Part shown: in pieces, positions 7,197 to 23,096 of the stretch
Layout of the letters: every line of letters begins with the position of its first letter
Position numbering within the stretch: position 1 is the stretch's first letter
Source: Streptomyces sp. NBC_00775
GTDB taxonomy: Bacteria; Actinomycetota; Actinomycetes; Streptomycetales; Streptomycetaceae
DNA length: 64,000 nucleotides
Direction of reading: 5' to 3'
Assembly (NCBI RefSeq): GCF_036347135.1
Contig: NZ_CP108938.1
Location: 4,154,001 to 4,218,000 of the forward strand
Position numbers and translations under genes: made by a program
The notes under the pieces: generated by a model
Seen by the model: only the letters and a program-made list of their open reading frames with translations
Databases searched by the model: none
What the model was told of the DNA's origin: nothing

Positions 7197-7263
7197 GAGT
7201 CCATCTCTATCGCGGCAGGCGCTCCGTCATCCAGCCCCATTCCTTCGTGGTCACACACCCGTG

Positions 7264-7298
7264 ACGCACCTCGCCGCTTATGCGGTTTTTAGGTGCGT
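7264..7298. terminator. Candidate hairpin between kinase genes 2 and 1
   Basis: Outer arms ACGCACCT and AGGTGCGT (8 bp) enclose an inner CCGC-TTAT-GCGG stem followed on the plus strand by five T residues. It covers the stop codon of the upstream kinase gene. It could end that transcript, which fits reports that homologous kinase genes are transcribed separately. The T-tract is in the plus orientation, so a role for the minus-strand transcript is uncertain. Confidence 0.35.
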
Positions 7299-8962
7299 AC
7301 GAAGGTATCCACCGCCACGTCGAAGTACTCCTTCGCCTCCGTCACCTTCCCGACCGGCGCCGACACCCACACGTCGTACATCCGGCCGCCCTCCTCCCAG
7401 CAGAGGTCGTACGTGTGCCGCGCGCCCTCCGCCTTGGTGAAGCCGTTCCAGGTGAACTCCCAGAGCGCGGCGGTCTGTCCGTTGTGCGTGGTCCGCGTGA
7501 CCGTGCCGTCGCGGTAACCCGGGTTCGTGGACGGACCCTTGGCGTCCGCCCGCCGCATCACCCCGAGCGGGCCGCCCGTCTCGGGATCGGTCACCTTGAT
7601 GCCGAGACGGAAGATCTGCCCCGGTGACATGTAGAAGACCCGCTCGCCTTGCGGATCCCGCGTGAAGTCGTCGGGCACGGCGAGCGAGAACCCGTACGGG
7701 TCGTCGGCGATGCTGTAACCCGAGGGCGCCGTACGCGCGGTGGAGGTCGGACTCTGCTGCCGGGTCACGGTGACGGTGGGTCCGGGGCTCGCGGATGTCG
7801 AGGAGGACCCCGACGCACCTCCCGCCGTAGCCCTGGATGTAGACGTAGCCGTAGACCTGGACGAGGACGTGCTCGACGGGGACGGCGTACCGCCCCCACC
7901 GTCGTTCATCAGCAGCGCCGCGGCCGACACGCCCGCCCCGGCCATCGCGGCGACCAGCGCGGCGGCGACGAGGATGCCGCGCGCGGAGTGCTTCGCGGAT
8001 CGTTCCTCCACCGTGGAGGGCGAGGACGAGGCCGAGGTCGAGGACGACGGCGGTGCGGGCTTCCGCTTCGGTACGTCCCGCTGCGTGGGCGTGTACGGGG
8101 TCAGCAGCCGTGGCGTACGGCCCGTGTCCCGGAAGGCGCGCAGCATGCGCTCCGCCTCCGCCGCGTCGAGCCGCCGTTCGGGGTCGCGCTCCAACAGCCC
8201 CCGTACGACCGGCAGCAGCGGCGCGGCCTGGGCGGGTGGACGAATCTCGTCGACGACGACGGCGTGCAGGATGCCGCCCAACGAGTCGCGGCGGAAGGGC
8301 GATTCGCCGCTCAGCACGGTGCACAGCAGCGCGCCGAGCGACCACAGGTCGGACTCGGGGCCCGTCCTGACCCCGGACATCCGCTCGGGCGCGGTGTACT
8401 CGGGCGAGCCGACGAAAGCCCCGCTCTCGGTGAGCGTGGTCGCGCCCGCGACCTGGGCGATGCCGAAGTCGGTGAGGACCACGCGGTCGGTGCCCGCCTC
8501 GATCAGGACGTTGGCGGGCTTGAGGTCCCGGTGCAGGACGCCCGCGTCGTGCGCGCGGCGCAGCGCGCCGAGGAGGCCGATGCCGATGCGGGCGGCCTCA
8601 CGCGCGTCGACCGGGCCGTCGGCGGAGATCCGCTCGGCGAGCGAGCCGCCGTCGATCAGCTCCATCACGATGTACGGCCGTTCGTCGTCCACGACCACGT
8701 CGTGCACGACGATGATGTGCGGATGCCGCAGCTGCGCGACGGCGCGGGCCTCACGCAAGGTGCGGTCCCGTTGCAGCCGGGCCTCGTCCTCCGAGAGCGA
8801 GTCGTCGACCGCGAGTTCCTTCACCGCGACCCGGCGGCCGAGCAGTTGGTCGGTGGCGCGCCATACGACGCCCATGCCGCCCCGCCCGATCCTGGCCTCC
8901 AGCCGGTACCGGCCCGCGATCACACGGACGTTCTCCCCCTCGGTCCCCATGGGCCCCATCAT
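7289..8962 (-). CDS. Transmembrane Ser/Thr protein kinase 2
   Basis: 557-residue Hanks-type kinase. Kinase domain at about 14-270 with IGRGGMGVVW, Lys in RVAVKEL, HRDLKPANV, DFGIAQ and a GSPEYTAPERM activation-loop end. A Ser/Thr-rich juxtamembrane linker leads to one helix (about 328-350) and a long Ser/Thr-rich stalk, then a sensor-like domain containing YGFSLAVPDDF and ALWEFTWNG, shared with the neighbouring kinases. Catalytically complete. An in-frame ATG at 8950 is an alternative start. Confidence 0.9.
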   Translation of the reverse strand: MMGPMGTEGENVRVIAGRYRLEARIGRGGMGVVWRATDQLLGRRVAVKELAVDDSLSEDEARLQRDRTLREARAVAQLRHPHIIVVHDVVVDDERPYIVMELIDGGSLAERISADGPVDAREAARIGIGLLGALRRAHDAGVLHRDLKPANVLIEAGTDRVVLTDFGIAQVAGATTLTESGAFVGSPEYTAPERMSGVRTGPESDLWSLGALLCTVLSGESPFRRDSLGGILHAVVVDEIRPPAQAAPLLPVVRGLLERDPERRLDAAEAERMLRAFRDTGRTPRLLTPYTPTQRDVPKRKPAPPSSSTSASSSPSTVEERSAKHSARGILVAAALVAAMAGAGVSAAALLMNDGGGGTPSPSSTSSSRSTATSTSRATAGGASGSSSTSASPGPTVTVTRQQSPTSTARTAPSGYSIADDPYGFSLAVPDDFTRDPQGERVFYMSPGQIFRLGIKVTDPETGGPLGVMRRADAKGPSTNPGYRDGTVTRTTHNGQTAALWEFTWNGFTKAEGARHTYDLCWEEGGRMYDVWVSAPVGKVTEAKEYFDVAVDTFVRT

Positions 8963-9028
8963 GCCGCACCGGACGAGGACCCTCCGGACGGCAACCGGCC
9001 TAGTTGGGGGCTTCGGGCGACAGGGCTG

Positions 9029-10660
9029 CTAGGAGGCCTGGGGGCGCCAGCCGCGCAGTATCGCGTCGAACTGCTGACGGGCTGTGTCCCAGTCCGCCGC
9101 CGGCGCCGACATGTAGATCGCGTACTCGACACCGTCCCGCGCGAGATACGTCTGCTCGATGGCCCGGCGCGGCCCCGGGAACGGCGTCTGCTTCGGCAGC
9201 GCTGTCCAGGTGAAGTCCCAGAGCGAACCGTGGCAGTCCCGGAAGGTGTTGGCCTGGAGACTCACCCGGTGGTACTCGCTCAGCTTCGTCAACTGCTGCT
9301 CCAGGTCCAGCTGGTGCATGTACGGGTTGTCGAAGTCGGGCGAGTCGTCCACGGCGATGCGGACGAAGTGCTCGCCGCCGTCGGGCGTGTAGTCGACCTG
9401 GGTGCCGTTGGCCTGCCGCTCCCAGCCCTTGGGCAGAGCGAGGCTGAAGCCCTCGACGTCGTGGACCCGGTGCCAGTTGTCGGGGACGGCACCGGCGGGC
9501 GTCTGCGTCGCGCTCTTCCCACCCGTCCCGCCCGTCCCACCCGGGCTGCTCTTTCCGCCCACGGTGCTGGTCGACGCGGTGTTGTCCTTGCGCCACTCGT
9601 CCGCGTACCGCATGGCCGCGGCGCTGCCACCGCCGACGAGCGCGGCCATGACGATCACGAGGACGGCCGTGCGGCCCCGACGCCGCTTTCTCGGCGGGAC
9701 GGAGGCGGGCGCGGGCAGCGGCTGGTGCAGGGTCACGACCGGGGTGGCCTGGGGCGGGCGTACGGAGCTGGTCGCCGCGTCGCCTCCGCCGCCCTCCATG
9801 TGCTCCGTCGGCACATACGCCTGCGCGGCATTGGGCCGTCGCCCCTCCGCAGCCTCGGCGAGCATCTGCTCGGCCTCCGACGCGCTGGGGCGCTGGGCGG
9901 GATCCTTGCGCAGCAGCGCGGTGATGACGGGCTCCAGCGGGCCGGCCTGGAGCGGCGGCGCGGGCTCCTCGTCGACCACGGCCTGCATGGTGGTCAGCGG
10001 CGAGGTGCGCCGGAACGGCGACCGCCCCTCCACCGCCGTGTACAGCGTGGCGCCGAGGGCCCACAGGTCGGAGGCGGGCCCGGGGTCGTGGCCGCGTACC
10101 CGCTCGGGCGCCAGATAGTCGACCGAGCCGACGATCTCGCCGGTGCGCGTGATCGTCGTATCGCCCTCGACCTGCGCGATCCCGAAGTCGGTGAGCAGCA
10201 CGCGCCGGTCGGCGGAGAGGAGTACGTTCCCGGGCTTCACGTCACGGTGCAGGACGCCGGCGGCGTGCGCGGCCCGCAGCGCGCGCAGCACCCACAGCCC
10301 GATCCGCGCCGCCTCGACCGGTTCAATACGCTCCCGCTCCTTGACCTCGTCGGCCAGCGAGTTGCCCTCGACCAGCTCCATGACGATCCACGGCCGGTTG
10401 TCGTGCTCCAGGACGTCGTGCACGGTGACGACGGCCTCGTGGTTGATCCGGGCGGCGGCACGCGCCTCGGCGTGGGTACGCGCGAGCAGCCGGGCCAGGT
10501 CGCTCTCGGCGACGTACAGCGCCGCGGTCAGCTCCTTGACCGCGACCGCGCGGTGCAGCACCTCGTCGTGAGCGCGCCACACCCGGCCCATGCCACCGCT
10601 GCCGATGATGTCGACAAGCCGGTAGCGGCCCGCGAGGAGCAGGCCCTGCATCTGATTCAC
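9029..10660 (-). CDS. Transmembrane Ser/Thr protein kinase 3
   Basis: About 543 residues from a GTG at 10660 that has a GCGGGG site just upstream; a TTG at 10672 and an ATG at 10651 are alternatives. Kinase domain at about 10-270 with IGSGGMGRVW, Lys in AVAVKEL, HRDVKPGNV, DFGIAQ and LAPERVRG. Helix at about 329-352, then an extracytoplasmic domain with GFSLALPKGW and LWDFTW, the same pattern as in the flanking kinases. All catalytic residues are intact. Confidence 0.9.
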   Translation of the reverse strand: MNQMQGLLLAGRYRLVDIIGSGGMGRVWRAHDEVLHRAVAVKELTAALYVAESDLARLLARTHAEARAAARINHEAVVTVHDVLEHDNRPWIVMELVEGNSLADEVKERERIEPVEAARIGLWVLRALRAAHAAGVLHRDVKPGNVLLSADRRVLLTDFGIAQVEGDTTITRTGEIVGSVDYLAPERVRGHDPGPASDLWALGATLYTAVEGRSPFRRTSPLTTMQAVVDEEPAPPLQAGPLEPVITALLRKDPAQRPSASEAEQMLAEAAEGRRPNAAQAYVPTEHMEGGGGDAATSSVRPPQATPVVTLHQPLPAPASVPPRKRRRGRTAVLVIVMAALVGGGSAAAMRYADEWRKDNTASTSTVGGKSSPGGTGGTGGKSATQTPAGAVPDNWHRVHDVEGFSLALPKGWERQANGTQVDYTPDGGEHFVRIAVDDSPDFDNPYMHQLDLEQQLTKLSEYHRVSLQANTFRDCHGSLWDFTWTALPKQTPFPGPRRAIEQTYLARDGVEYAIYMSAPAADWDTARQQFDAILRGWRPQAS

Positions 10661-10749
10661 GTTTCCCCGCAATGTTCTTGACAGGGGTCAGACTAAGGAG
10701 CGCCGCCCCGCACAGGGAACCGGCGCGGTCGTACGGAGACCGCACTGTG

Positions 10750-10783
10750 ACGGTTCTCCCTTCCGGGTACGGGAGGGAACCGT
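10750..10783. terminator. Imperfect hairpin after the pseudokinase gene
   Basis: ACGGTTC pairs with GAACCGT, with an inner CTCCC/GGGAG helix and small bulges. It lies between the end of the degenerate kinase gene and the start of kinase 3, and would separate their transcripts. No T-tract, as usual for streptomycete terminators. Confidence 0.45.
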
Positions 10784-10828
10784 TCGGCGTTCAGGGCCAC
10801 ATGGGCCGGGTGAGGGGCTGAGGCCGGT

Positions 10829-13687
10829 TCAGCCGGTGACCTGATACGTCGCCGACGCCTGCTCGTACAGCCGTGTCACCTCGTCCCGTTCGGCCTCCGG
10901 GCCGCGCACCTGCACCACGTGGTAGCGCCCGCCGACGACGATCGCGAGGTTGCGCACATAGAGCGAGCGTCCCGCGGAGTCCTGCCAGGTGAACTGCCCC
11001 TCGGCCATGGTCCGTCCGCCCACCTCGATCCGCCGCATCCCGCTGGACGTGGCCCAGGTCGAGTCCCGGAACGGCTGCAGTTCCTTCTCGCTCTCCCGCT
11101 GGTACGTCATCGGGTCGCTGCCGTACGTCGACGTGCTGTCCCGGCCGGGTACGACGATGAGCTCGAAGTCCCCGTGGGAGTACACGACCTGGCCGCTGCC
11201 GTTCTTCGGCGTACGGTCCCAGCCGTCGGCCACCGCGACACTGAAGCCCTCGGCGTCCTTGCGGAGCTTGAACCCCTGGGCGACATCGGGGTCGCCGGTC
11301 TGCGACTTCGTCGAACTGGACGACCCTGAGGGGCTCTTGTCCGTGCCGGGCGAGGTCTGGTCCGGCCGCGGCTCACTGCTCGCCCTGCCGTCCCCGCTGG
11401 TGTCGGGGGCGGGGCTGACACCTCCGGCGGCGCCCGTCCGCTCTCCGTCCGTAACGCTGCCACTGCCGCTGCTCGACTCGGCCTTCGGCATGAAGACCAT
11501 GGCGTACGTGATCGCCGCGGCCAGCAGGAGCAGGACGAGCAGGAGCAGATTCCGGCCCAGACGGCGGGGCTTGGCCGATCTCGTCGCCTTGGCCTGCCTG
11601 GCCGGCCTGTCCTGCTTGGCGCGCTTGTGGCGGGCGTGCGGGCTGGTCGCGGGCAGCCCGGCGCGGCGCCTGCGGACGAGCTCGCCCCGGCGCCGTACGA
11701 TCGGCAGCCGGCTCGGGTCGACGGGGGGCGCGGCGACGACATGCGCGCCCGCCTCGGGCTCCGGCGCGGACCGTACGAGGGAACGCAGCCAGCCGCGCAA
11801 CTCCTCGAAGTCGAGCCGCTCGGTGGGGTCCTGGCGCAGCAGCGACTCCACGACGGGCCGCAGCGGCCCGCACTCCTCGGCGAACGCGGGCGGCTCCGCG
11901 CACACCAGCTGCACCAGCTCGGCGGTGTTCTCCTCCGGATAGGGCGCGTGCCCCTGCACGGCCCGGAAGAGCAGCGCCCCCAGCGCCCACAGATCGGTCC
12001 GGGGCCCGATCGGCGCCGCCAGCTGCCAGTTCTCGTGCACCGGCCCGGCCTGCTCCGGCGCCCACCGCTCGGTCACCGGCCCCACCACAGCCATCCGCGC
12101 CTGCCGGGCCCGCTCCGCGGCGAGCGCGGTGCTGGGCCCCCGGCTCGGCGGCGCGCTGGCGACGAGCTCGTCCCAACGACCGCCCTGGCCCTGGGCGTTG
12201 TGAGCGGTCTGGGGAGCTGGGTGGGTTTGAGGCGTTTGGGGGTGGTGGGAAGCTCGGGTGTAGTCGGGCTCTCGGGTGTAGTCGGACTCCCGGCTGTTGT
12301 CGGGTGTGCGGGCGGGAGCCTGGGAGCCAGGTCCGCCACCACGCCCGGCGGGGGAGGACTGCTGCCCGGGCGCGAGCGCGGGAGTGCCGTACCCCGCGGC
12401 CGCCGCGCCGTTCGCGCCTCCGGGAAGCGCCGCGCGCCCCTGGCCGTTGCCACCGCCGGCGGTGCCGGTACGCGGCTGGGCGCCATGCCAGGTGGTACCG
12501 CCCCCCACTCCGTACGGGTCGGCTATCTGGCCGGGGGGTGCCGAGGCGGCGGACTGTCCGGCCGTCCCGGCCTGTTCGGACGGTGTCGAGGGCCGGGGCG
12601 CGGGCAGCGCCACCTGGTTGCCCCGTTGTTCTTCCTGCACGCGGGCGGCGGCACGCGCCCCGGCGCGGTACGCGGCGATGGCTCCGGCGCGCGCCGCGCG
12701 AATGTCGGCCTCGGCACCCCCCGCGCCCCCTGCCCCGCCCGCTTCGAGCGCACGCCGGCCCGCACCGGGCGCACCCCCCGCGGGCGTACCCGCTACGGGC
12801 GTCCCCTGCTCCGCCCGAGCCTCGATCGCGGCCCGCCGCGCGGCTTCGGGGTCGCCGCCGGGCGAACCTCCGCCACCGAACCCGACCCCACCCGGACCAC
12901 GTACACCGGCACCGCTGGATCCGCCGAGCGCACCAGGCACAGCCCCACCGGTGCCGGCGCCGGCACCGCGCTGGGCACCGCCCACGCCGGGCGAACCGCC
13001 GTTCCCCGCCCGCCCGGTGTGTCCACCGGAACCGGGACCGGCCCCGGAACCGGGCTCAGCCTCCACGTCCTCCCGGACCGGCACCGGGTCGTACCCGCAC
13101 AGCGCCTCTTCCGCGGCCCCCGCCGCCAGGCCGGTCAGCATGACGCGGCCGTCGTCGCAGACGAGCACGGTGCGCGCGGTGATGTTCCGGTGCACCCAGC
13201 CGTGTGCGTGCAGCACTCGCAGCGCGGTGAGGACGTCGGAGGCGACCTCGGCGGCCCGATAGGGGCTCAGCGGCTTCTCGGCGAGCAGCGCGGCCAGCGG
13301 CCTCGCGGGCACCAACTCGCTCACTATCCACAGCGACCCGCCCTCGGCGAACACGTCGAAGACCTGGTCGAGCCGGGGGTGGTCGGGGATCTGCGCGGCG
13401 GCCTGAGCGGCCTCGATCGCCCGCCGCACGGCCGGTTCGGTGGGCCGTCGTGTGGTCCGCGCGGACGCCCGCCGTACCCCGCCGTCCCGTGGCACGAATC
13501 CCTCGGGCAGCCCGTCCGCGTCGAGCACCTCGGCCTCGACGACCTCCGGCAACGGCACCTGCCGTACCAGGACTTCCTGCCCGCTGTAGGTGTCGAAGGC
13601 CCGGGTCTCGGCGAGTTCATACTCGTCGGAGGGCGGTAGCGGCAGGCGGTAGCGGTCGGCGAGTACCCGTCCCGCATAGTCGTCCAC
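10829..13687 (-). CDS. Degenerate kinase-family receptor (pseudokinase) with long disordered insert
   Basis: About 952 residues from a GTG at 13687 preceded by GGGGGAGG; an ATG-proximal extension to 13717 is less likely. The N-lobe lacks a glycine loop, and the Lys position reads VLVRQV. The catalytic loop reads VHRNITARTVL (Asp to Asn, about residue 167), and DFG is replaced by LTGLAAG (about 184). Roughly residues 200-545 are a Gly/Ala/Pro-rich low-complexity insert. The C-lobe then resumes with PRTDLWALGALLF (about 567). One helix at about 712-733 is followed by an extracytoplasmic domain starting GFSVAVADGW, related to those of the active kinases. Phosphotransfer is not expected; a scaffold or allosteric role is inferred. 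Confidence 0.85.
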   Translation of the reverse strand: MDDYAGRVLADRYRLPLPPSDEYELAETRAFDTYSGQEVLVRQVPLPEVVEAEVLDADGLPEGFVPRDGGVRRASARTTRRPTEPAVRRAIEAAQAAAQIPDHPRLDQVFDVFAEGGSLWIVSELVPARPLAALLAEKPLSPYRAAEVASDVLTALRVLHAHGWVHRNITARTVLVCDDGRVMLTGLAAGAAEEALCGYDPVPVREDVEAEPGSGAGPGSGGHTGRAGNGGSPGVGGAQRGAGAGTGGAVPGALGGSSGAGVRGPGGVGFGGGGSPGGDPEAARRAAIEARAEQGTPVAGTPAGGAPGAGRRALEAGGAGGAGGAEADIRAARAGAIAAYRAGARAAARVQEEQRGNQVALPAPRPSTPSEQAGTAGQSAASAPPGQIADPYGVGGGTTWHGAQPRTGTAGGGNGQGRAALPGGANGAAAAGYGTPALAPGQQSSPAGRGGGPGSQAPARTPDNSRESDYTREPDYTRASHHPQTPQTHPAPQTAHNAQGQGGRWDELVASAPPSRGPSTALAAERARQARMAVVGPVTERWAPEQAGPVHENWQLAAPIGPRTDLWALGALLFRAVQGHAPYPEENTAELVQLVCAEPPAFAEECGPLRPVVESLLRQDPTERLDFEELRGWLRSLVRSAPEPEAGAHVVAAPPVDPSRLPIVRRRGELVRRRRAGLPATSPHARHKRAKQDRPARQAKATRSAKPRRLGRNLLLLVLLLLAAAITYAMVFMPKAESSSGSGSVTDGERTGAAGGVSPAPDTSGDGRASSEPRPDQTSPGTDKSPSGSSSSTKSQTGDPDVAQGFKLRKDAEGFSVAVADGWDRTPKNGSGQVVYSHGDFELIVVPGRDSTSTYGSDPMTYQRESEKELQPFRDSTWATSSGMRRIEVGGRTMAEGQFTWQDSAGRSLYVRNLAIVVGGRYHVVQVRGPEAERDEVTRLYEQASATYQVTG

Positions 13688-13858
13688 GATGCCTCCCCCG
13701 GCCGACCGGTTGGTCAATTCCGTTCGCCTTGCGTCCCGTTACGGCTTCGTACGGTCCGCAACCACTCACGATACGTGCCGGAGGCAACCCGCAAAGTGCG
13801 GATTGCGAGATCTCACGGCCCCCATGCGTGGCGGAACGTCACATCGGCGAGCGGTACG

Positions 13859-16114
13859 TCACGACTTCGGCTGGAACGTCGTGGTGAATGTCTTCCATGT
13901 GTCCTTGCGCAGCTCGCTGTCCCACTTGGCCGCTTTCGCCGTGTACATCAGCGCGTATCCCTGATGGGAGTTGACGACGAACCCGCGGTCGATCGACCGG
14001 TACTTCGTGCCGCCGTCCGTGTAGGTGAACTCCCAGTCGGCCGTGTTCCAGTCGCGGTATTCCACCTTCTCTATGCGCACCCGCTTGTACTGCGAGCGCG
14101 TCATGTACCTCTCCTGGTTCTTCCAGTCCGCGACGGGGTCATCCTTGGGCGTCGTCGTCCAGCCGACCAGAAGCTTCTGCTCGTCGGGGCCGGTGAACCG
14201 GGCTCCCGCGCTGCCCGTGGACTCGTACTTCCACCCCTTCGGCAGCCCGATCGAGAAACCCTGCCCGCCCTTGTACGTCGTCACCGCGGTGGAGCCCGAC
14301 GAGCCCGACTCCTTGCCGCCGCTGTCCGTCCCGCTCGACGCGCTCGCACTGGCGCTCGCGCCCGAGGTGGCGTTCGCGGTCTCCTCCGGGTCGGAACCCG
14401 CGGTGGAGCCCGTCTTGGCACCGCTGTCCGTGTGGTCGCCGCCGCTGCCGCCGCTGTCCTTGCCGCCGCTTCCCGCGGTCGCTCCACTGGAGGCGGCCGC
14501 CTTGGTGTCGCCGCTCTTGCTGCCCTTCGACCCGTCGTCGTCCCCGCCACCGAGCGTGAGCGCCAGCACGGTCCCGAGCACGGCCAGCACCACGACCAGC
14601 GCGATGATCACCAACGTCCGCTTCGGCACCACATCCGTCAACGGCGCCCGGGGCACCGGCCGCGGCGGCCGCTCCGGAGCCACCGGCCACCCGGATCCCG
14701 AGGCTCGCCCGGCCGACCCACCAGCATCCACGGAACCCGCGGCACCAGCAGCCCCCGCCGAACTGGAGTTCACCGACGTACTGTCACGAACCCCCGCCTT
14801 CCCGGAGGAAGCCGCACTCGCACCGCCACCCGCACCGGCACCCGTCCCGGCGGCAGCCGCACCAGCACCCGAAGCCTTCCGCAACCCGGGCGACACAGGC
14901 GGCGCGGACGGCGTGGGAGGCACCGGCGCCGAAGGCGACGCAGTCGTGGACACACCGGCACCGGCACCCGCACCCGCACCCGTGGAAGCCGCCCCGTCGC
15001 CCGCCGCCGACCCGGAACCCTCCGTGCCGACAGCCTTCGCGCGTGCCGTCGCCGCCGCGGTGGCCGCCGCCGTGGCAGCCCCGGCCGCCGATGCCGCCTT
15101 CCGCACGGAACGCAGCGCCCCGCGAAAACGATCCGCCGCCTCCTCGCCCCGCTTGGCCCCGGAGCCGCCCGAACTCCCCTTGCCCGGGCCCTCGTCGGGC
15201 ACCGGCGGCAACGCCACGACCTTGGTCGCGTCCGCCGGCTCCGGCACCGTCTCCCGGGGCTCGGGCGCGTGCAGCACCTTGTTGAGCATCGCCCGGGCGC
15301 CCGCGTCGTCGAGCCGCTGCTCGGGGTCCTTGGCGAGCAGCCCGTAAATCACGTTCTCCAGCGGCCCCGCGTTCTTCGGCTGCTCCACCGGCTCAGTCAT
15401 CACCGCGGTGAGCGTCGCGATCGCGGAACCCTTGTCGTACGGAGGCACGCCCTCCACCGACGCGTACAGCAGCCCGCCCAGCGACCACAGGTCGGCCGCG
15501 GGACCGGGCTTGTGCCCGCGCGCCCGCTCCGGCGAGATGTACGAGGGCGCGCCGACGAGCATGCCGGTCGAGGTGATGGACGGGTCGCCCTCGACCTGCG
15601 CGATACCGAAGTCGGTCAGCACCACGCGGCCGTCGTCGGACATCAGCACGTTGGACGGCTTCACGTCCCGGTGCAGGATGCCCTCACGGTGCGCCGAACG
15701 CAGCACGTCGAGTATCGCCAGGCCGACCTCGGCGGCGCGCCTCGGCGTGAGCAGGCCGTCCTCGCGGATGACCTCGGCGAGCGACTTGCCCTCGACGAGC
15801 TCCATCACGATCCACGGCCGGTTGTCCTCGTCGACCACGTCGAAGACCGTCACCGCGCCGTTGTTGCGGACCCGCGCGATCGCCTTGGCCTCGCGCAGCG
15901 TGCGCGTGATCAGCCGCCGCTTCTCGTCCTCGTCGATGCTCGACGGGAACCGCAGCTCCTTCACGGCGACCGTACGGCCCAGGGTCTCGTCCTTGGCCCG
16001 CCACACCGTGCCCATGCCGCCGCGGCCGAGAACATCCCCCAGCCGGTATCGCCCGGCGAGGAGACGTTCGCTCTTGTCCTGACGGGATGCTCCCGCCCGC
16101 TCCGCCTCCGACAT
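13859..16114 (-). CDS. Transmembrane Ser/Thr protein kinase 5, long Ala/Ser/Pro linker
   Basis: About 751 residues from the ATG at 16114 (AGGGGACGC upstream); the frame is open to 16177. Kinase domain at about 18-280: LGRGGMGTVW, Lys in TVAVKELRF, HRDVKPSNVL, DFGIAQ and ISPERARG. A low-complexity cytoplasmic region of about 200 residues leads to a helix at about 498-520, a Ser/Gly/Asp-rich stalk and a terminal domain with GFSIGLPKGW and ADWEFTYTDG, homologous to its neighbours. First gene of the array in the direction of transcription; divergent from the serine hydrolase gene. Confidence 0.9.
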   Translation of the reverse strand: MSEAERAGASRQDKSERLLAGRYRLGDVLGRGGMGTVWRAKDETLGRTVAVKELRFPSSIDEDEKRRLITRTLREAKAIARVRNNGAVTVFDVVDEDNRPWIVMELVEGKSLAEVIREDGLLTPRRAAEVGLAILDVLRSAHREGILHRDVKPSNVLMSDDGRVVLTDFGIAQVEGDPSITSTGMLVGAPSYISPERARGHKPGPAADLWSLGGLLYASVEGVPPYDKGSAIATLTAVMTEPVEQPKNAGPLENVIYGLLAKDPEQRLDDAGARAMLNKVLHAPEPRETVPEPADATKVVALPPVPDEGPGKGSSGGSGAKRGEEAADRFRGALRSVRKAASAAGAATAAATAAATARAKAVGTEGSGSAAGDGAASTGAGAGAGAGVSTTASPSAPVPPTPSAPPVSPGLRKASGAGAAAAGTGAGAGGGASAASSGKAGVRDSTSVNSSSAGAAGAAGSVDAGGSAGRASGSGWPVAPERPPRPVPRAPLTDVVPKRTLVIIALVVVLAVLGTVLALTLGGGDDDGSKGSKSGDTKAAASSGATAGSGGKDSGGSGGDHTDSGAKTGSTAGSDPEETANATSGASASASASSGTDSGGKESGSSGSTAVTTYKGGQGFSIGLPKGWKYESTGSAGARFTGPDEQKLLVGWTTTPKDDPVADWKNQERYMTRSQYKRVRIEKVEYRDWNTADWEFTYTDGGTKYRSIDRGFVVNSHQGYALMYTAKAAKWDSELRKDTWKTFTTTFQPKS

Positions 16115-16263
16115 GCGTCCCCTCATGCAACCCGCCCTGACAGAGCCTCCATTGTCCCTCACCCGACAAGTACTCAACGCCCAGGGGCCCCCTCATGCCC
16201 CGACCGCCCGGCGTCCACACAGCTACGTCCCACATGATGGACCGCGACAAGGAAGGACCGCCG

Positions 16264-17373
16264 ATGCCTCCGACCAGGACACCTCGGACACTTCTGGCCA
16301 TACCTGTGTCCCTGGCGCTGCTCGGCCTGGCCCCGAGCGGTCTTCTGGTCCTGACCCCGTCCCCCCTCACCTCCCCCGTCTCCGCGACCCCAACGGCCTC
16401 ACCAGCCCTCACATCCCCGGCGACAGACGCCGCCCTCGCCCTCCTCGTCACCCGCGGCAAGGTCCCGGCCGCGGCCATGCTGGCACGTGACGACTCCGGC
16501 TCACGCTTCGCCCGCGCCGGATCCGGAATGGCGCGCTCCGACCACTTCCGCGCGGGCAGCATCACCAAGACGTTCATCGCGACGGTGGTCCTGCAACTCG
16601 CCGCCGAGCACCGGCTGTCCCTGTCCGACTCCGTGGACGATCACCTCCCCGGCCTGGTGCGCGGCGCGGGCAACGACGGCCGCCGGCTGACGTTGCGCGC
16701 CCTGCTCACCCACACCAGCGGCCTGTACGACTTCACCGCGGACACCAAGGGCCTGGTCCCCGTCACCCCGCTTCAGGCCATACGCATCGCGCTCACCCAC
16801 CCCCCGGCCGACCGCGGCCGCTTCGCCTACTCCAACACCAACTACGTAGTGCTCGGCATGGTCGTCGAGCAGGTCACCGGCCACTCGTACGCCACCGAGG
16901 CCGAGCGCCGGATCATCACTCCTCTCCGTCTGACCGGCACCTCCTTCCCGGGTGCCCGCACCTCGCTGCCCTCGCCGCACGGTCGCTCGTACACCGCCGA
17001 CGGGTCGGACGTCACGGAACTCGACCCGCGCGTGGCCGGCGCGGCGGGTGAGCTGGTCAGCACGCTCGCCGACCTCAACCGCTTCTACTCCGCCCTGCTG
17101 GGCGGCGACCTGCTGCCCTCGCACTGGCTGCGCGAGATGCTCAACACCCGTACCGCACAGGGCGAGTACGGCATGGCGCTGTTCCCCGTGAAGCTCCCGT
17201 GCGGGACCACGGTGTGGGGGCACAATGGCCGGATCTCCGGCAGCTACGTGCGCACCGCGGCCACCGTCGACGGTCGTCGTGTCCTCACCTTCCGGGTGAA
17301 CACGGATGCGATGGCAGACCCCGACCTCGAACCCGCGCTGCTCGCCGCCGAGTTCTGCCCCCGCACCTCGTAG
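16264..17373 (+). CDS. Secreted serine hydrolase (class C beta-lactamase / D-Ala-D-Ala carboxypeptidase fold)
   Basis: 369-residue protein from the ATG at 16264, which has an AAGGAAGGA site before it; an upstream ATG at 16195 gives an unlikely leader. Signal peptide at about residues 1-35. Active-site motifs are in order: SITK (nucleophile Ser and Lys) in RAGSITKTF, YSN in YSNTNYV, and HNG in GHNGRISG replacing the usual KTG. Typical of serine-type D-Ala-D-Ala carboxypeptidases and esterases of family S12; the true substrate cannot be told. Divergent from kinase 5 across about 150 bp. Confidence 0.85.
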   Translation: MPPTRTPRTLLAIPVSLALLGLAPSGLLVLTPSPLTSPVSATPTASPALTSPATDAALALLVTRGKVPAAAMLARDDSGSRFARAGSGMARSDHFRAGSITKTFIATVVLQLAAEHRLSLSDSVDDHLPGLVRGAGNDGRRLTLRALLTHTSGLYDFTADTKGLVPVTPLQAIRIALTHPPADRGRFAYSNTNYVVLGMVVEQVTGHSYATEAERRIITPLRLTGTSFPGARTSLPSPHGRSYTADGSDVTELDPRVAGAAGELVSTLADLNRFYSALLGGDLLPSHWLREMLNTRTAQGEYGMALFPVKLPCGTTVWGHNGRISGSYVRTAATVDGRRVLTFRVNTDAMADPDLEPALLAAEFCPRTS

Positions 17374-17559: not shown

Positions 17560-19266
17560 CTACAGCGGCACGATGTCCGGCGCTCCCAGCCGCGCCGCGT
17601 CCGCCGTCAGGTCGTCCGGCTGGCGCTGGGACTCCCGCTCGGCCTCGACCCGCTTCTCGTAGTGCTCCACCTCGCGCTCGATCTGGTCCTTGTCCCAGCC
17701 GAGGACCGGTGCCATCAGCTCGGCGGCGTCGCGGGCGCTGCGCGTGCCCCGGTCGAAGGTCTCGATCGAGATGCGGGTGCGCCGGGTCAGCACGTCGTCC
17801 AGGTGGCGGGCGCCCTCGTGCGAGGCGGCGTAGACGATCTCGGCCTTGAGGTAGTCGTCGGCGGCCGGCAGGGGCTCGCCCAGGGACGGGTTCTCGGTGA
17901 TGAGGTCGAAGAGCTCCTCGGCGAGCGCCCCGTACCGGTTCAACAGGTGCTCCACGCGCACCACATGGATCCCGGTGCGCTGCGCGATCCGCGCTCGCGC
18001 GTTCCACAGCGCCCGGTATCCCTCGGCGCCCAGGAGCGGGATGTCCTCGGTGACGCACTCGGCGACCCGCTGGTCGAGGCCGTGCACCGCCTCGTCCACC
18101 GCGTCCTTGGCCATCACCCGGTACGTCGTGTACTTGCCGCCCGCCACGACCACGAGCCCCGGCACCGGATGGGCCACGGTGTGCTCGCGCGACAGCTTGC
18201 TGGTGGCGTCCGACTCGCCGGCGAGCAGCGGCCGCAGCCCCGCGTACACGCCCTGTACGTCGTCGCGGGTGAGCGGCACCGAGAGCACCGAGTTCACATG
18301 CTCCAGCAGATAGTCGATGTCCGCGCTGGACGCCGCCGGGTGGGCCTTGTCGAGGTCCCAGTCGGTGTCGGTGGTGCCGATGATCCAGTGGCGTCCCCAC
18401 GGGATCACGAACAGCACGGACTTCTCGGTGCGCAGGATCAGACCTGTGGAGGAGTTGATCCGGTCCTTCGGTACGACCAGGTGGATGCCCTTGGACGCCC
18501 GTACGTGGAACTGCCCGCGCTCCCCCACCATCCCTTGGGTGTCGTCGGTCCACACGCCGGTGGCGTTGACGACCTGCTTGGCGTGGATCTCGTACTCCCC
18601 GCCGCCTTCGACATCCTGCACCCTGGCGCCGACAACGCGTTCGCCCTCGCGCAGGAATCCGGTCACGCGCGCGCGGTTGGCGACCTTCGCGCCGTACGCG
18701 GCCGCCGTGCGCACCAGGGTCGCCACATAACGGGCGTCGTCCATCTGCGCGTCGTAGTACTGCAAGGCGCCGACCAGCGCGTCCTTCTTCAACGCGGGGG
18801 CGACGCGCAGGGCATGGCCGCGGGTCAGGTGACGGTGTGTGGGCAGTCCGCGGCCGTGGCCGCTCGAAATCGACATGGCGTCGTAGAGGGCGACGCCCGA
18901 GCCCGCGTACAGCCGCTCCCAGCCCTTGTGCTGGAGCGGGTAGAGGAAGGGGACGGGCTTCACCAGGTGCGGTGCGAGCCGTTCGAGGAGCAGACCGCGT
19001 TCCTTAAGGGCCTCGCGCACCAGCGCGAAGTCGAGCATCTCCAGATAGCGCAGTCCTCCGTGGATCAGCTTGCTGGACCTGCTCGAAGTGCCCGACGCCC
19101 AGTCACGCGCCTCGACCAGGCCCGTGGACAGGCCGCGTGTCACGGCGTCGAGTGCGGTACCCGCGCCGACCACGCCCGCGCCGACGACCAGCACATCCAG
19201 CTCGCGCTCGGCCATTCCCGCCAATGACTCGGCGCGCTCCGCCGGCCCCAGTGTCGCTGTCCTCAC
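17560..19266 (-). CDS. glpD: Glycerol-3-phosphate dehydrogenase (FAD-dependent)
   Basis: 568-residue flavoenzyme oxidising sn-glycerol-3-phosphate to dihydroxyacetone phosphate at the membrane, feeding electrons to the respiratory chain. Visible: FAD-binding VVGAGVVGAGTALDA near the N-terminus, the family signature GTSSRSSKLIHGGLRYLE, and HIVINATGVW-like VVNATGVWTDD mid-protein. A C-terminal helical extension carries DDVLTRRTR. The start is a GTG at 19266 with a GGGAGG site upstream. Length is normal for the family. No glpF or glpK is in the window. Confidence 0.93.
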   Translation of the reverse strand: MRTATLGPAERAESLAGMAERELDVLVVGAGVVGAGTALDAVTRGLSTGLVEARDWASGTSSRSSKLIHGGLRYLEMLDFALVREALKERGLLLERLAPHLVKPVPFLYPLQHKGWERLYAGSGVALYDAMSISSGHGRGLPTHRHLTRGHALRVAPALKKDALVGALQYYDAQMDDARYVATLVRTAAAYGAKVANRARVTGFLREGERVVGARVQDVEGGGEYEIHAKQVVNATGVWTDDTQGMVGERGQFHVRASKGIHLVVPKDRINSSTGLILRTEKSVLFVIPWGRHWIIGTTDTDWDLDKAHPAASSADIDYLLEHVNSVLSVPLTRDDVQGVYAGLRPLLAGESDATSKLSREHTVAHPVPGLVVVAGGKYTTYRVMAKDAVDEAVHGLDQRVAECVTEDIPLLGAEGYRALWNARARIAQRTGIHVVRVEHLLNRYGALAEELFDLITENPSLGEPLPAADDYLKAEIVYAASHEGARHLDDVLTRRTRISIETFDRGTRSARDAAELMAPVLGWDKDQIEREVEHYEKRVEAERESQRQPDDLTADAARLGAPDIVPL

Positions 19267-19537
19267 CGCTGCCTCCCGCTATATGTCGCGCTGGCCGCAC
19301 CTGTCGGGCGACGCCCGGCTCACATCCCCCATGCCCAAAGTCTGACCTCCTAGCCCGACATCGGCCACCGCCCGCCCGCAGCCTGTGGACAACTCTCGGC
19401 GACTCGCAAGGAATCACGGCCGAACAATCCCGCAAATCGGTCATATTTACTCCTAGTCTGACATTGCGCTCGCCCATCCTGTCCACAGGGCTTGCGCACC
19501 TGTCCCGCTTCGGTTACTGGGAAGGACGGCCCACGCC

Positions 19538-20746
19538 ATGCCCGCAGATCTCGCCGTCATCGGACTCGGTCATCTCGGCCTGCCGCTGGCCCAGGCCGCC
19601 GTCGCCGCCGGCATCCCCACGCTCGGCTACAAAACAGGGCCGGAAGGCGGCTCCCTCACCCCCGCCGAACTGCGCCGGATGCTCTCGGGGGGCTTCCGGC
19701 CCGCCGGCAACCCGGCCGAGCTCGGCCGCGTACGCACCGCGGTCATCTGCGCACCGACCCCACGGGGCGCCGACGGCGACCTCGACCTCAGCCAGGTGGA
19801 GGCCGCCGCCCGCACCCTGGCCGCGCAGCTGCGCCCGCACACCACGGTGATCCTGGAATCACCCGTGCACCCCGGCACCACGGAGGAATTCCTCCGCCCG
19901 CTCCTCGAAGAGGGCTCCAGACTGCGCGCGGGGCGTGATTTCCACCTCGCGTACTCACCCAGTCGGGTAGACCCCGGCAACCGCGACTTCGGTCCCGCCA
20001 ACACTCCGAAGGTCATCGGCGGTCTGACCCCCGCGTGCACCGAGTCGGCCGCCGCCTTCTACGGGCGCCTCACCGACAAGGTGGTACGCGCGCGTGGACC
20101 ACGCGAAGCGGAAACCGTGCAGCTCCTGGAGACCAACTACCGGCATGTCAACATCGCCCTCGTCAACGAGATGGCCGTGCTCTGCCACGACCTGGGCGTC
20201 GACCTGTGGGACGTCATCCGCTGCGCCGAGACCAAGCCGTTCGGCTTCCAGGCGTTCCGGCCGGGCCCCGGTGTGGGCGGCCACGGCATCCCCCAGGACC
20301 TGACCGGCCACACGACCCGCTCACTCCGGATGGTCGAACTGGCTCAGCAGGTCAACAGCCACATGCCGCAGTACGTCATCCAGCGCGCCGCCACGCTTCT
20401 CAACGAGCACGGGAAATCGGCCCGCGCCGCGCGCGTGCTCCTCCTCGGCGTCACCTACAAGCCCGACCTCGCCGACCAGCAGGGCACCCCCGCCCACGAG
20501 ATCGCGCTGCGCCTGATGGAACTCGGCGCGTCCGTCAGCTACCACGACCCGCACGTCCCTGCCTGGAGCGTTCTCGGGCGCCCCGTCCCGCGCGCGGACT
20601 CCCTCTACGAGGCCGCGGCCGACGCCGATCTCACGATCCTGCTCCAGCAGCACCGCACGTACGACCTGCAAGGACTGTCCGTGAAGGCCCAGCTGCTGCT
20701 GGACACCCGGGGGGCGACCCCGACCGGGGCGGCGCACCGGCTCTGA
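19538..20746 (+). CDS. Nucleotide-sugar dehydrogenase homologue with altered active site
   Basis: 402-residue member of the UDP-glucose / UDP-N-acetyl-hexosamine 6-dehydrogenase superfamily, with N-terminal Rossmann domain (VIGLGHLGLP), central helix and C-terminal domain (LLGVTYKPDLAD). Three residues central to catalysis in characterised members differ. The thioester-forming Cys of the GGHCxPxD loop is Gly (VGGHGIPQD). The Lys and Asn of the KLxEN motif read QLLET. The Asp after the first Rossmann strand that usually binds NAD ribose is replaced (TLGYKTG). The fold is clear but normal two-step oxidation to a uronate is not expected. No glycan cluster lies beside it. Confidence 0.82.
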   Translation: MPADLAVIGLGHLGLPLAQAAVAAGIPTLGYKTGPEGGSLTPAELRRMLSGGFRPAGNPAELGRVRTAVICAPTPRGADGDLDLSQVEAAARTLAAQLRPHTTVILESPVHPGTTEEFLRPLLEEGSRLRAGRDFHLAYSPSRVDPGNRDFGPANTPKVIGGLTPACTESAAAFYGRLTDKVVRARGPREAETVQLLETNYRHVNIALVNEMAVLCHDLGVDLWDVIRCAETKPFGFQAFRPGPGVGGHGIPQDLTGHTTRSLRMVELAQQVNSHMPQYVIQRAATLLNEHGKSARAARVLLLGVTYKPDLADQQGTPAHEIALRLMELGASVSYHDPHVPAWSVLGRPVPRADSLYEAAADADLTILLQQHRTYDLQGLSVKAQLLLDTRGATPTGAAHRL

Positions 20747-20900
20747 CCTCCCCGAAATCTCCTCACGGGCTGTCACTCCGGCCTGCTAATGTGCGGCAGC
20801 TCTCGCACACAAGTGCGCCCGCGTCCCGGGCGCCCTCAGATGTGCGCTCACGTCCCTGGCGCACACCGCAAGTGCGCACACATTCCCTGGGGGGAACCAT

Positions 20901-21503
20901 ATGAGTCAGTCGACTCCGCCGCCGTCCGGTCCACCGGTCGACAACCCGTACGCGGGCCAGAACCCGTACGCCGGCCAGCCCGGCCAGCCGCCCGCCCCGG
21001 AGCAGGGTGCCGACCAGGCCGGCTTCCCGCAGCAGGGCGCCCCGCTGGGCACGCCCCAGCCCGGCTTCCCGATGGCCCCCGTCGCCCCGGCCGCTCCGGT
21101 GCGCAACAACCTGGGGCTCGGTCTCGCCGCCGCCGTCGGTGCCGCCCTGGTCGCGGCGGGCGTCTACGGCGCCATCATCGGCCTCACCAAGCACGAGATC
21201 GGCTGGGCCGCCGTCGGCGTCGGCTTCCTGATCGGCCTCGCCGCGGGCCGCTTCGGCGGCCGCAACCCGATCCTGCCGATCGTCAGCGTGGTGCTGTCCG
21301 CCGGCTCGGTCTACCTCGGCCAGCTGGTCGGCGAGGCCATGATCGGCTCCAAGGAGGTCGGCATCGGCTTCAACGAGCTGTTCTTCGACCACTTCGACGT
21401 GGTCCAGGAAGCCTGGAAGGCCGAGGCCGACCCGCTGACCTTCGTCTTCTTCGCGATCGCCGCGTACGTGGCCTTCTCGAGCGCCCGGAAGGCCGGGGCC
21501 TGA
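20901..21503 (+). CDS. Membrane protein with Pro/Gln/Gly-rich N-terminal tail
   Basis: 200 residues. The first 70 are Pro-, Gly-, Ala- and Gln-rich with NPYAGQ repeats, a cytoplasmic disordered tail seen in many actinobacterial membrane proteins. Three or four hydrophobic helices follow (about 75-95, 103-118, 122-142 and 180-195). Function unknown. The ATG has a GGGGGGAA site upstream. It is followed after two bases by a second small membrane gene, so the two form an operon. Confidence 0.75.
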   Translation: MSQSTPPPSGPPVDNPYAGQNPYAGQPGQPPAPEQGADQAGFPQQGAPLGTPQPGFPMAPVAPAAPVRNNLGLGLAAAVGAALVAAGVYGAIIGLTKHEIGWAAVGVGFLIGLAAGRFGGRNPILPIVSVVLSAGSVYLGQLVGEAMIGSKEVGIGFNELFFDHFDVVQEAWKAEADPLTFVFFAIAAYVAFSSARKAGA

Positions 21504-21505
21504 CG

Positions 21506-21772
21506 TTGCCCGTCTTCCTGTTCCTCCTGCTCTTCGGCCTCTCGGCCGTCATGAGCGGAGGCTGGGTCGCCTTCGACATCCGGGGCTCGTCCGCGGCGCT
21601 GGAGGCCTACCAGGAGCGCAATCACGAACTGCGCACCACCGCGGTCGGCAACTTCACGCCGCCCGACAAGTGGATCACCGCCCTCGGTTACCGCGTACTC
21701 GGTGGCTCCATCGCTCTGGCCGGTGTGTTCCTGACACTCGTCGGCGTCGCCGAGCTGGTGTCGGGCGGCTGA
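21506..21772 (+). CDS. Small two-helix membrane protein
   Basis: 88 residues starting at a TTG two bases after the previous stop codon, so translation is probably coupled. An N-terminal hydrophobic helix (PVFLFLLLFGLSAVMSGGW) and a C-terminal one (GGSIALAGVFLTLVGVAELV) flank a short polar domain. An internal ATG at 21551 would lose most of the first helix. Function unknown; co-transcribed with the preceding membrane gene and ended by a strong terminator. Confidence 0.65.
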   Translation: MPVFLFLLLFGLSAVMSGGWVAFDIRGSSAALEAYQERNHELRTTAVGNFTPPDKWITALGYRVLGGSIALAGVFLTLVGVAELVSGG

Positions 21773-21787
21773 CCCGGCACCCGTCAC

Positions 21788-21829
21788 GCGAAAGGGCCCG
21801 TCCACCACTCGGTGGACGGGCCCTTTCGC
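21788..21829. terminator. Strong bidirectional terminator
   Basis: A 19-bp perfect stem (arms 21788-21806 and 21811-21829) with loop ACTC. The stem carries AAAGGG near its base and GGGCCC internally, so both strands read A-rich then T-rich. It sits between the convergent small membrane gene and guaB3. Confidence 0.9.
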
Positions 21830-21846
21830 CGCGTACGGGCCGCGGG

Positions 21847-22971
21847 CTAGCGCTTGTGCTGGGAGTCCGCGACCGTCACCTCGACGCGCTGGAACTCCTT
21901 GAGCTCGCTGTAACCGGTCGTGGCCATGGCGCGGCGGAGGGCACCGAAGAAGTTCATGGAGCCGTCGGGGGTGTGCGAGGGGCCCGTGAGGACCTCCTCG
22001 ATCGTGCCGACGGTGCCGAGGTCGACCTTCTTGCCTCGCGGCAGCTCCTCGTTGACCGCCTCCATGCCCCAGTGGTGGCCCTTGCCGGGCGCGTCCGTGG
22101 CACGGGCCAGCGGGGAGCCCATCATCACGGAGTCGGCACCGCAGGCGATGGCCTTGGGGAGGTCGCCGGACCAGCCGACGCCGCCGTCGGCGATCACGTG
22201 CACATACCGGCCGCCGGACTCGTCCATGTAGTCGCGGCGGGCCGCGGCCACGTCCGCGACGGCGGTTGCCATCGGGACCTGAATCCCCAGCACGTTGCGC
22301 GTGGTGTGCGCGGCGCCGCCGCCGAAGCCGACGAGGACACCGGCCGCGCCGGTGCGCATCAGGTGCAGGGCCGCGGTGTACGTGGCGCAGCCGCCGACGA
22401 TCACCGGGACGTCCAGCTCGTAGATGAACTGCTTCAGGTTCAGCGGCTCGGAGGCGCCCGAGACATGCTCCGCGGACACCGTCGTACCGCGGATGACGAA
22501 GATGTCCACGCCCGCGTCCACGACGGCCTTGGAGAACTGCGCCGTGCGCTGCGGGGACAGGGCCGCGGCGGTGACGACGCCGGAGTCGCGCACCTCCTTG
22601 ATGCGCTGCCCGATCAGCTCTTCCTTGATGGGAGCCGCGTAGATCTCCTGGAGGCGGCGGGTCGCGGCGTCCACGTCCAGCTCGGCGATCTCGTCGAGCA
22701 GCGGCTGCGGGTCCTCGTACCTCGTCCACAGGCCTTCGAGGTTGAGGACGCCCAGGCCGCCCAGCTCGCCGATGCGGATCGCGGTGGCCGGGGAGACGAC
22801 CGAGTCCATCGGGGCGGCCAGAAACGGCAGCTCGAAGCGGTAGGCGTCGATCTGCCAGGCGATCGAGACCTCCTTCGGGTCTCGCGTACGGCGGCTCGGG
22901 ACGACGGCGATGTCGTCGAAGGCATACGCCCGGCGGCCGCGCTTGCCGCGCCCGATCTCGATCTCAGTCAC
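21847..22971 (-). CDS. guaB3: GuaB3 family IMP dehydrogenase-related protein
   Basis: 374-residue (beta/alpha)8 barrel of the IMPDH/GMP-reductase family without CBS domains. The start is a GTG at 22971 (GAAAGG upstream); the frame is open further but unlike the family. Visible: FDDIAVVPSRRTRD, LAAPMDSVVSP, the ADGGVGWSGDLPKAIACGAD phosphate loop, and a C-terminal FFGALRRAMA. The loop that carries the catalytic Cys in IMPDH reads GGGAAHTTRNV here, with no Cys, as I recall for other actinobacterial GuaB3 proteins. Role in purine metabolism is unproven. Downstream of guaB on the same strand. Confidence 0.9.
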   Translation of the reverse strand: MTEIEIGRGKRGRRAYAFDDIAVVPSRRTRDPKEVSIAWQIDAYRFELPFLAAPMDSVVSPATAIRIGELGGLGVLNLEGLWTRYEDPQPLLDEIAELDVDAATRRLQEIYAAPIKEELIGQRIKEVRDSGVVTAAALSPQRTAQFSKAVVDAGVDIFVIRGTTVSAEHVSGASEPLNLKQFIYELDVPVIVGGCATYTAALHLMRTGAAGVLVGFGGGAAHTTRNVLGIQVPMATAVADVAAARRDYMDESGGRYVHVIADGGVGWSGDLPKAIACGADSVMMGSPLARATDAPGKGHHWGMEAVNEELPRGKKVDLGTVGTIEEVLTGPSHTPDGSMNFFGALRRAMATTGYSELKEFQRVEVTVADSQHKR

Positions 22972-23026
22972 GTGTGTGGCCTTTCCCTCTTCGCTTCTGC
23001 GCTCCCAGTATCCCCGACGCCTACGA

Positions 23027-23061
23027 CAAGGGCGGCCCCGGAACCTCCGGGACCGCCCTTG
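23027..23061. terminator. Terminator after guaB
   Basis: CAAGGGCGG and CCGCCCTTG form the outer stem and CCCGG/CCGGG an inner stem around a short loop. It lies 36 bp beyond the guaB stop codon and before guaB3, so the two genes have at least partly separate transcripts. Confidence 0.75.
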
Positions 23062-23096
23062 GACGTGCCCCACGCACGCGTGGAGCACGATTACGG

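Follow-up and report, generated by a model that had tools for sequence, protein, structure and literature searches.

By its sequence and predicted fold, the protein encoded at positions 19538 to 20746 on the forward strand of the window, the 64,000-nucleotide stretch of Streptomyces sp. NBC_00775 DNA analysed here, is a nucleotide-sugar dehydrogenase by descent, and its residues put it outside the class of NAD-dependent NDP-sugar 6-dehydrogenases. The reading that we consider probable, with real room for doubt, is that of a pseudoenzyme inactivated in steps, seated between guaB3 and glpD, that would still bind a UDP-type ligand and report it through its C-terminus. The initial annotation had proposed a conserved branch of the superfamily that is either non-catalytic or differently catalytic. 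Our results agree with that proposal: the branch forms one clade, the catalytic losses run throughout it, its dN/dS values are those of purifying selection, and it occupies one genomic place.

The reading frame is intact from ATG to TGA over 402 codons, as had been stated, and 89% of its third codon positions are G or C, a value expected for a Streptomyces gene. The N-terminal, central and C-terminal UDPG_MGDP_dh domains scored 72.8, 74.4 and 56.3 bits against Pfam cut-offs of 27, 25.4 and 30, and the NCBIfam model TIGR03026 scored 292.5 bits against a cut-off of 189.8. Together with matches to solved structures, these scores place the 402-residue protein in the superfamily by homology and fold, and they bear out the UDP-sugar dehydrogenase fold assigned earlier. 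Databases name the proteins of this branch nucleotide-sugar dehydrogenase or UDP-N-acetyl-D-glucosamine dehydrogenase. Scans of 19200-21900 for promoters and terminators returned 0 sites each, Streptomyces promoters being poorly covered by the scan.

The residues that are invariant among 229 members of the family have been listed with their roles, among them Tyr10 in thioester hydrolysis, Asp29 at the NAD ribose and Arg327 at the NAD pyrophosphate (PMC4794789, whose numbering is given in brackets below). Three sets of replacements named in the initial annotation are present as described: the thioester Cys is Gly250 (GGC, 20285-20287) within VGGHGIPQD; QLLET (20120..20134) stands in place of KLxEN, with Gln195 for the catalytic Lys and Thr199 for the catalytic Asn; and TLGYKTG lacks the Asp that selects NAD, residue 32 being Lys (AAA, 19631..19633). 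Four further losses were identified, all likewise on the forward strand. His replaces the thioester-hydrolysing Tyr at residue 12, inside a GxGxxG turn that is itself kept (residues 9-14, 19562..19579); Pro replaces the Thr that adjoins NAD and the catalytic water at residue 109 (19862..19864); Ser replaces the loop Glu at residue 142 (19961..19963); and Gln replaces the Arg that holds the NAD pyrophosphate at residue 315 (20480..20482). The RPGPGVGGHGIPQD loop (20258..20299) that carries Gly250 retains the UDP-side glycines and the general-base Asp254. Thus the query shows three features of the enzyme class, the general-base Asp, the GxGxxG turn and the UDP-diphosphate Lys, and lacks the GGxC Cys, the Lys and Asn of KLxEN, the loop Glu and Thr, and the NAD Arg and Asp.

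Two sets of proteins served to count these positions: 373 unique members of the branch and 163 relatives from outside it. The branch set is not a random sample: it combines P0001-P0241 (two lists of the best 120 matches each) with 80 named loci and the genome loci, made unique, and leaves out six fragmentary or split copies (L124, L126, L129, L131, L132 and L133). The outside set combines, also made unique, the best 120 matches to one Cys-keeping protein with 45 genome loci that were chosen before their residues were seen or came from a re-search of weakly matching genomes. The catalytic Cys (Cys260; query 250) is found in 6/373 branch proteins as against 163/163 outside, the loop Glu (Glu141; query 142) in 1/373 against 162/163, the hydrolytic Tyr (Tyr10; query 12) in 3/373 against 162/163, the NAD-pyrophosphate Arg (Arg327; query 315) in 4/373 against 163/163, and the catalytic Asn (Asn208; query 199) in 13/373 against 163/163. 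Less complete losses were seen for the Thr of the ST pair (Thr118; query 109; 64/373 against 163/163), the catalytic Lys (Lys204; query 195; 172/373 against 163/163) and the NAD-ribose Asp (Asp29; query 32; 184/373 against 162/163). Whereas 161 of the 163 outside proteins keep all eight of these NAD and chemistry residues, no branch protein keeps more than six and 165 of the 373 keep none. Among 101 columns at least 98% invariant in the outside relatives, 15 are lost in the branch and include 8 of 9 chemistry or NAD columns (hypergeometric P 2.7e-7, a descriptive value, since the nine columns were picked from PMC4794789 after the losses were known). Because Cys, Glu, Asn, Thr, Tyr and the NAD Arg are gone together, two-step oxidation is very unlikely. 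In the human enzyme UGDH, the C276A reaction from UDP-glucose falls short of completion (PMC3184952). PDB titles record a Glu161Gln protein with a trapped thiohemiacetal (3khu) and Tyr10 mutants (2y0c and 2y0d).

The question raised in the initial annotation, whether the same substitutions recur in orthologues, has a mixed answer. The catalytic losses recur across the branch, but the Cys replacement is not one fixed residue: the position holds Ala in 148 proteins, Gly in 140, Ser in 63, Asp in 8, Thr in 7, Cys in 6 and Val in 1. Similarly, the losses of the NAD Asp and the catalytic Lys hold for the query subgroup (168 proteins at least 85% identical), where Asp29 remains in 1/168 and Lys, Tyr, Thr, Glu, Cys and Arg327 each in 0/168, with Asn in 6/168; in the rest of the branch, however, the Asp (183/205) and the Lys (172/205) are mostly kept. 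A loss confined to this strain, or a sequencing error, can be ruled out, as Cys is present in 0/121 proteins made up of the query and its closest 120 among the matches listed. Some copies have gone further, with the general-base Asp also altered or missing in L080, L118, L127, L128 and L130 and the GGH turn reading AGP in L127, L128 and L130.

Other parts of the active site have been retained. At positions that PMC4794789 assigns to UDP, the loop and the general base, the UDP-diphosphate-holding Lys308 (Lys320; 20459..20461, forward strand) is kept in 360/373 branch proteins and in 168/168 of the query subgroup, Gly247 (Gly257) in 370/373 and the general-base Asp254 (Asp264) in 365/373, while Gly248 (Gly258), Asn210 (Asn219), Asn273 (Asn287), Glu192 (Glu201) and Pro140 (numbered as in that paper) are each present in 373/373. 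To judge from the retained diphosphate Lys and loop, the protein may well still bind a UDP-type ligand. The division between a kept UDP side and a lost NAD side is not clean, since several NAD-pocket residues remain: the three GxGxxG glycines are kept in 371, 343 and 372 of 373 proteins, Thr74 (Thr83) in 346/373 and Ser108 (Ser117) in 369/373, so that a dinucleotide may still bind. With Asp254, a UDP pocket and a dinucleotide turn in place, the branch might instead catalyze another reaction, one without oxidation, that acts on a nucleotide or nucleotide sugar. The near-constant Asp254, the mostly kept GxGxxG and the presence of H249 in 310/373 proteins are in keeping with this idea, and a different chemistry would likewise need the Asp. 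However, none of the positions of Cys, Glu and Thr has acquired a fixed new polar residue; at the Cys position and at Thr109, which is Pro, Ala, Thr or Ser in the branch, the replacements vary, and constraint therefore looks released. Moreover, the newly fixed residues lie at the C-terminus, distant in sequence from the old catalytic columns. Although sequence alone leaves room for both readings, we favor a non-catalytic protein and regard a different catalytic activity as unlikely.

The best sign of a new interface is the C-terminal segment, residues 376-402 (20663..20743, forward strand), which is nearly invariant in the branch and free to vary outside it. Mean entropy over the segment is 0.05 bits for the close group, 0.31 bits for the other branch members and 1.94 bits for the outside proteins. 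Lys383, Asp389, Gly392, Pro395 and Arg401 are each present in 373/373 branch proteins, and outside the branch Asp389 is found in 163/163, Arg401 in 95/163, Pro395 in 50/163 and Lys383 in 18/163. Codon differences between pairs that share the same residue peak in residues 391-402 (0.479 and 0.534), and this high codon turnover indicates that the protein rather than the DNA is constrained; an overlapping gene or signal in the DNA is ruled out on the same grounds. The new conservation suggests a surface through which ligand binding could be read out. It would also suit a pure scaffold, a protein that binds no ligand and counts only through its fold and its C-terminal surface, as the active-site chemistry is gone, the segment is the strongest new constraint and some of the kept UDP-side residues may be structural. 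On the other hand, the diphosphate Lys and the GG turn exceed what folding should need, judged by their published roles (PMC4794789), and we give the scaffold without a ligand a small chance at most.

The gene lies in a fixed place in the chromosome. On one side, 271 bp away and divergent, is a gene for a glpD-type glycerol-3-phosphate dehydrogenase (17560..19266, reverse strand; Pfam DAO and DAO_C), and the conserved neighbor on the other side encodes a guaB3-type IMP dehydrogenase-related protein (21847..23088, reverse strand; Pfam IMPDH). This setting is conserved: of 89 branch loci, 85 have glpD in their flanks (at L132 just a 31-residue match) and 71 have guaB3, whereas both are seen at 0/51 other loci, namely 45 of relatives outside the branch and 6 further matches in the query's own genome. 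Among the 80 named branch loci, 79 have glpD, 70 have guaB3 and 72 have a Ser/Thr kinase gene like that of the window. Of ten genomes belonging to genera that lack the gene, six have glpD within the 1.5 kb guaB3 flank with no pseudo-dehydrogenase gene between the two, and the gene was present at 0/16 guaB3 loci examined. It thus appears to have arrived a single time, at a site between guaB3 and glpD.

Several other neighbors were noted. A 200-residue predicted membrane-type protein with a start rich in Pro, Gly and Gln and no Pfam match is encoded at 20901-21503 (forward strand); it is present at 33/89 and at 29/80 branch loci, and was weakly seen beside guaB3 in two genomes of genera without the pseudo-dehydrogenase gene (L224 and L225). 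A beta-lactamase-fold protein (16195-17373, forward strand; PF00144, 161.8 bits) lies between glpD and a cluster of five Ser/Thr kinase-like genes (5472-16177). The fourth of these (10829-13717, reverse strand) matches Pkinase over residues 107-195 only, at 51.4 bits, and reads HRN at a motif where active kinases read HRD; its product is probably a pseudokinase. From the numbers of neighboring genes, our guess is that the Streptomyces coelicolor orthologue of the pseudo-dehydrogenase is SCO4773. Neither SCO4773 nor SCO4774 is named in the open-access main texts searched, in which we also found no description of this branch. The arrangement of the window's kinases corresponds to that of SCO4775-4779, a cluster whose deletion harms spore envelopes (PMC4416010). 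A functional tie between the pseudo-dehydrogenase and these kinases is speculation.

The contents of the genome also bear on whether the protein acts as an inactive subunit whose task is to activate or regulate a paralogue that works as a dehydrogenase. Such an arrangement has a precedent in the Trypanosoma brucei AdoMetDC, where an inactive paralogue activates its enzyme (PMC6221367), and some Streptomyces genomes do carry Cys-keeping relatives at 42-57% identity. In the query's own genome, however, the next best match is only 32% identical (84.7 bits, all 50 candidates scored), and the gene is thus kept without a close active paralogue, which disfavors a partnership of this kind. We regard it as very improbable.

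Phylogenetic analysis groups the branch as a single lineage. The branch was monophyletic in a quick tree of 106 proteins (SH-aLRT 100), and in a careful tree of 55 proteins its 26/26 rows grouped together with support of 100/100 and in all 200 bootstrap trees examined. It sits within a set of actinobacterial relatives that keep the Cys, and its stem is long (0.46 changes per column in the careful tree). Orthologues that keep the Cys, named in the initial annotation as evidence against its reading, are limited to six of the 373 proteins, among them those of W. vitaminophila, S. capparidis and one metagenomic sequence. The careful tree contains five of them, every one in the earliest-branching group (99/96); the sister of that group is supported at 100/96. 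Thr occupies the Glu position in each of the six, and five also keep Thr, Lys and Asn; Wenjunlia-type sequences hold six of the eight NAD and chemistry residues, and some Streptomyces sequences none. Because the Cys keepers branch early and lack the Glu, the loop Glu was probably lost first, then Cys and its neighbors; the main lineage of Streptomyces would later have lost Lys and the NAD Asp too. This direction is taken from the rooted tree. The early-branching sequences may still be partly active. They are also, together with the three family domains that pass their models, what could be said for dehydrogenase activity that has survived by means of other residues. Set against the fact that most branch members are missing six residues at once (Cys, Glu, Asn, Thr, Tyr and the NAD Arg), that explanation strikes us as highly improbable.

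The gene is nearly universal among the Streptomyces genomes searched: a branch member, whole or in pieces, was found in 294 of the 295. All 295 gave some match, with best E-values weaker than 1e-160 in eleven, and when 19 weak genomes, those eleven among them, were searched again, a branch member was recovered in all except G276. In that genome the contig stops 127 bases past the guaB3 gene, on the side expected to carry the pseudo-dehydrogenase, so the absence may reflect an assembly gap. In a sample of the family, 83/150 genomes have the gene, spread over 9 of 17 genus codes (Streptomyces 38/38, g7 33/35 and seven further codes 12/12), compared with 0/65 genomes of the remaining eight; this count and most of the 294 rest on E-values of 1e-160 or better instead of inspection sequence by sequence. 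Among the named holders are Streptomyces, Actinacidiphila, Streptantibioticus and Wenjunlia. Broken copies occur in a few Streptomyces, in three pieces in L131 and two in L126, with L133 also in pieces and L132 broken or split. The L131 genome is a single contig scored as 100% complete, and its flanking glpD reading frame is unbroken. Either the gene is dispensable in some strains or these copies were mis-sequenced.

Pairwise comparison of 46 close orthologues (1035 pairs) gave a median dN/dS of 0.157 and a maximum of 0.31; ten more distant pairs within the branch gave 0.07-0.30 and seven pairs outside it 0.11-0.23. These values point to ordinary purifying selection on the branch. Their resemblance to those of relatives outside it, with the single genomic place, agrees with the earlier view that the gene is not decaying. 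A slowly decaying relic, to which the varied replacements at the Cys position and the few broken copies might be attributed, is hardly credible beside such dN/dS values, the 294 genomes and a nearly invariant C-terminus.

Common descent with enzymes, loss of the catalytic residues and purifying selection together describe a pseudoenzyme. In the scheme we propose, a WbpA/WecC-like dehydrogenase would have entered a Streptomycetaceae chromosome between guaB3 and glpD. Its capacity for NAD-dependent oxidation would then have been dismantled in steps: the loop Glu would have disappeared first, Cys, Asn and Thr next, and the main lineage of Streptomyces would have given up Lys and the NAD Asp as well. 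The resulting protein would be unable to carry out the two-step oxidation, yet could hold a UDP-type ligand through the diphosphate Lys, the GG turn and the loop Asn residues, and binding would be read out through the C-terminal segment by a partner or a second subunit. Our best guess at its role is that of a sensor or scaffold for UDP-sugars, connected with envelope precursors. A bolder version, in which a core-genome Streptomyces sensor, possibly domain-swapped, binds an envelope precursor, for example UDP-GlcNAc, and signals through its invariant C-terminus, perhaps to the neighboring Ser/Thr kinases that affect the spore wall, is a long shot.

Nearly every Streptomyces genome searched thus carries a gene named as an enzyme that its sequence argues it cannot encode, and metabolic models and annotations built on the dehydrogenase name would be wrong. 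If the ligand is an envelope precursor, the leading producers of antibiotics would possess a sensor of a new type. Furthermore, since the branch preserves intermediate stages, from six of the eight residues to none, the order in which an enzyme is converted to a binding protein becomes directly testable.

Among known systems, the nearest solved structure by sequence is the UDP-ManNAc dehydrogenase of Pyrococcus horikoshii (4r16, E 3.6e-42), followed by Cap5O, the UDP-ManNAc dehydrogenase of S. aureus (3ojl, E 4.5e-41); the GDP-mannose dehydrogenase of P. aeruginosa (1mfz) is also among the closest. Structure models were built as one single-chain prediction each for the query and a control relative. 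The query model shares its fold with 4r16 and 3ojl, both of which keep the catalytic residues that the query has lost, but differs in where the C-terminal domain sits (full-chain rmsd about 19 Å), a GMD-like placement that may be an artefact of the prediction. In its active-site loop (residues ~231-260) the pLDDT is 53-56, and it is equally low in the control relative. The closest comparison is with the actinobacterial WbpA/WecC-like dehydrogenases outside the branch, such as that of Vallicoccus soli (P0242), which are 50-59% identical to the query and resemble it in the three-domain architecture, the SPxRxDPG and GPGVGGH loops and the motifs apart from the catalytic residues. They differ in keeping the Tyr, Thr, Glu, Lys, Asn, Cys and NAD Arg (162-163/163 each), in lying at other genomic places and in having a free C-terminus, and from these residues we infer that they are active enzymes.
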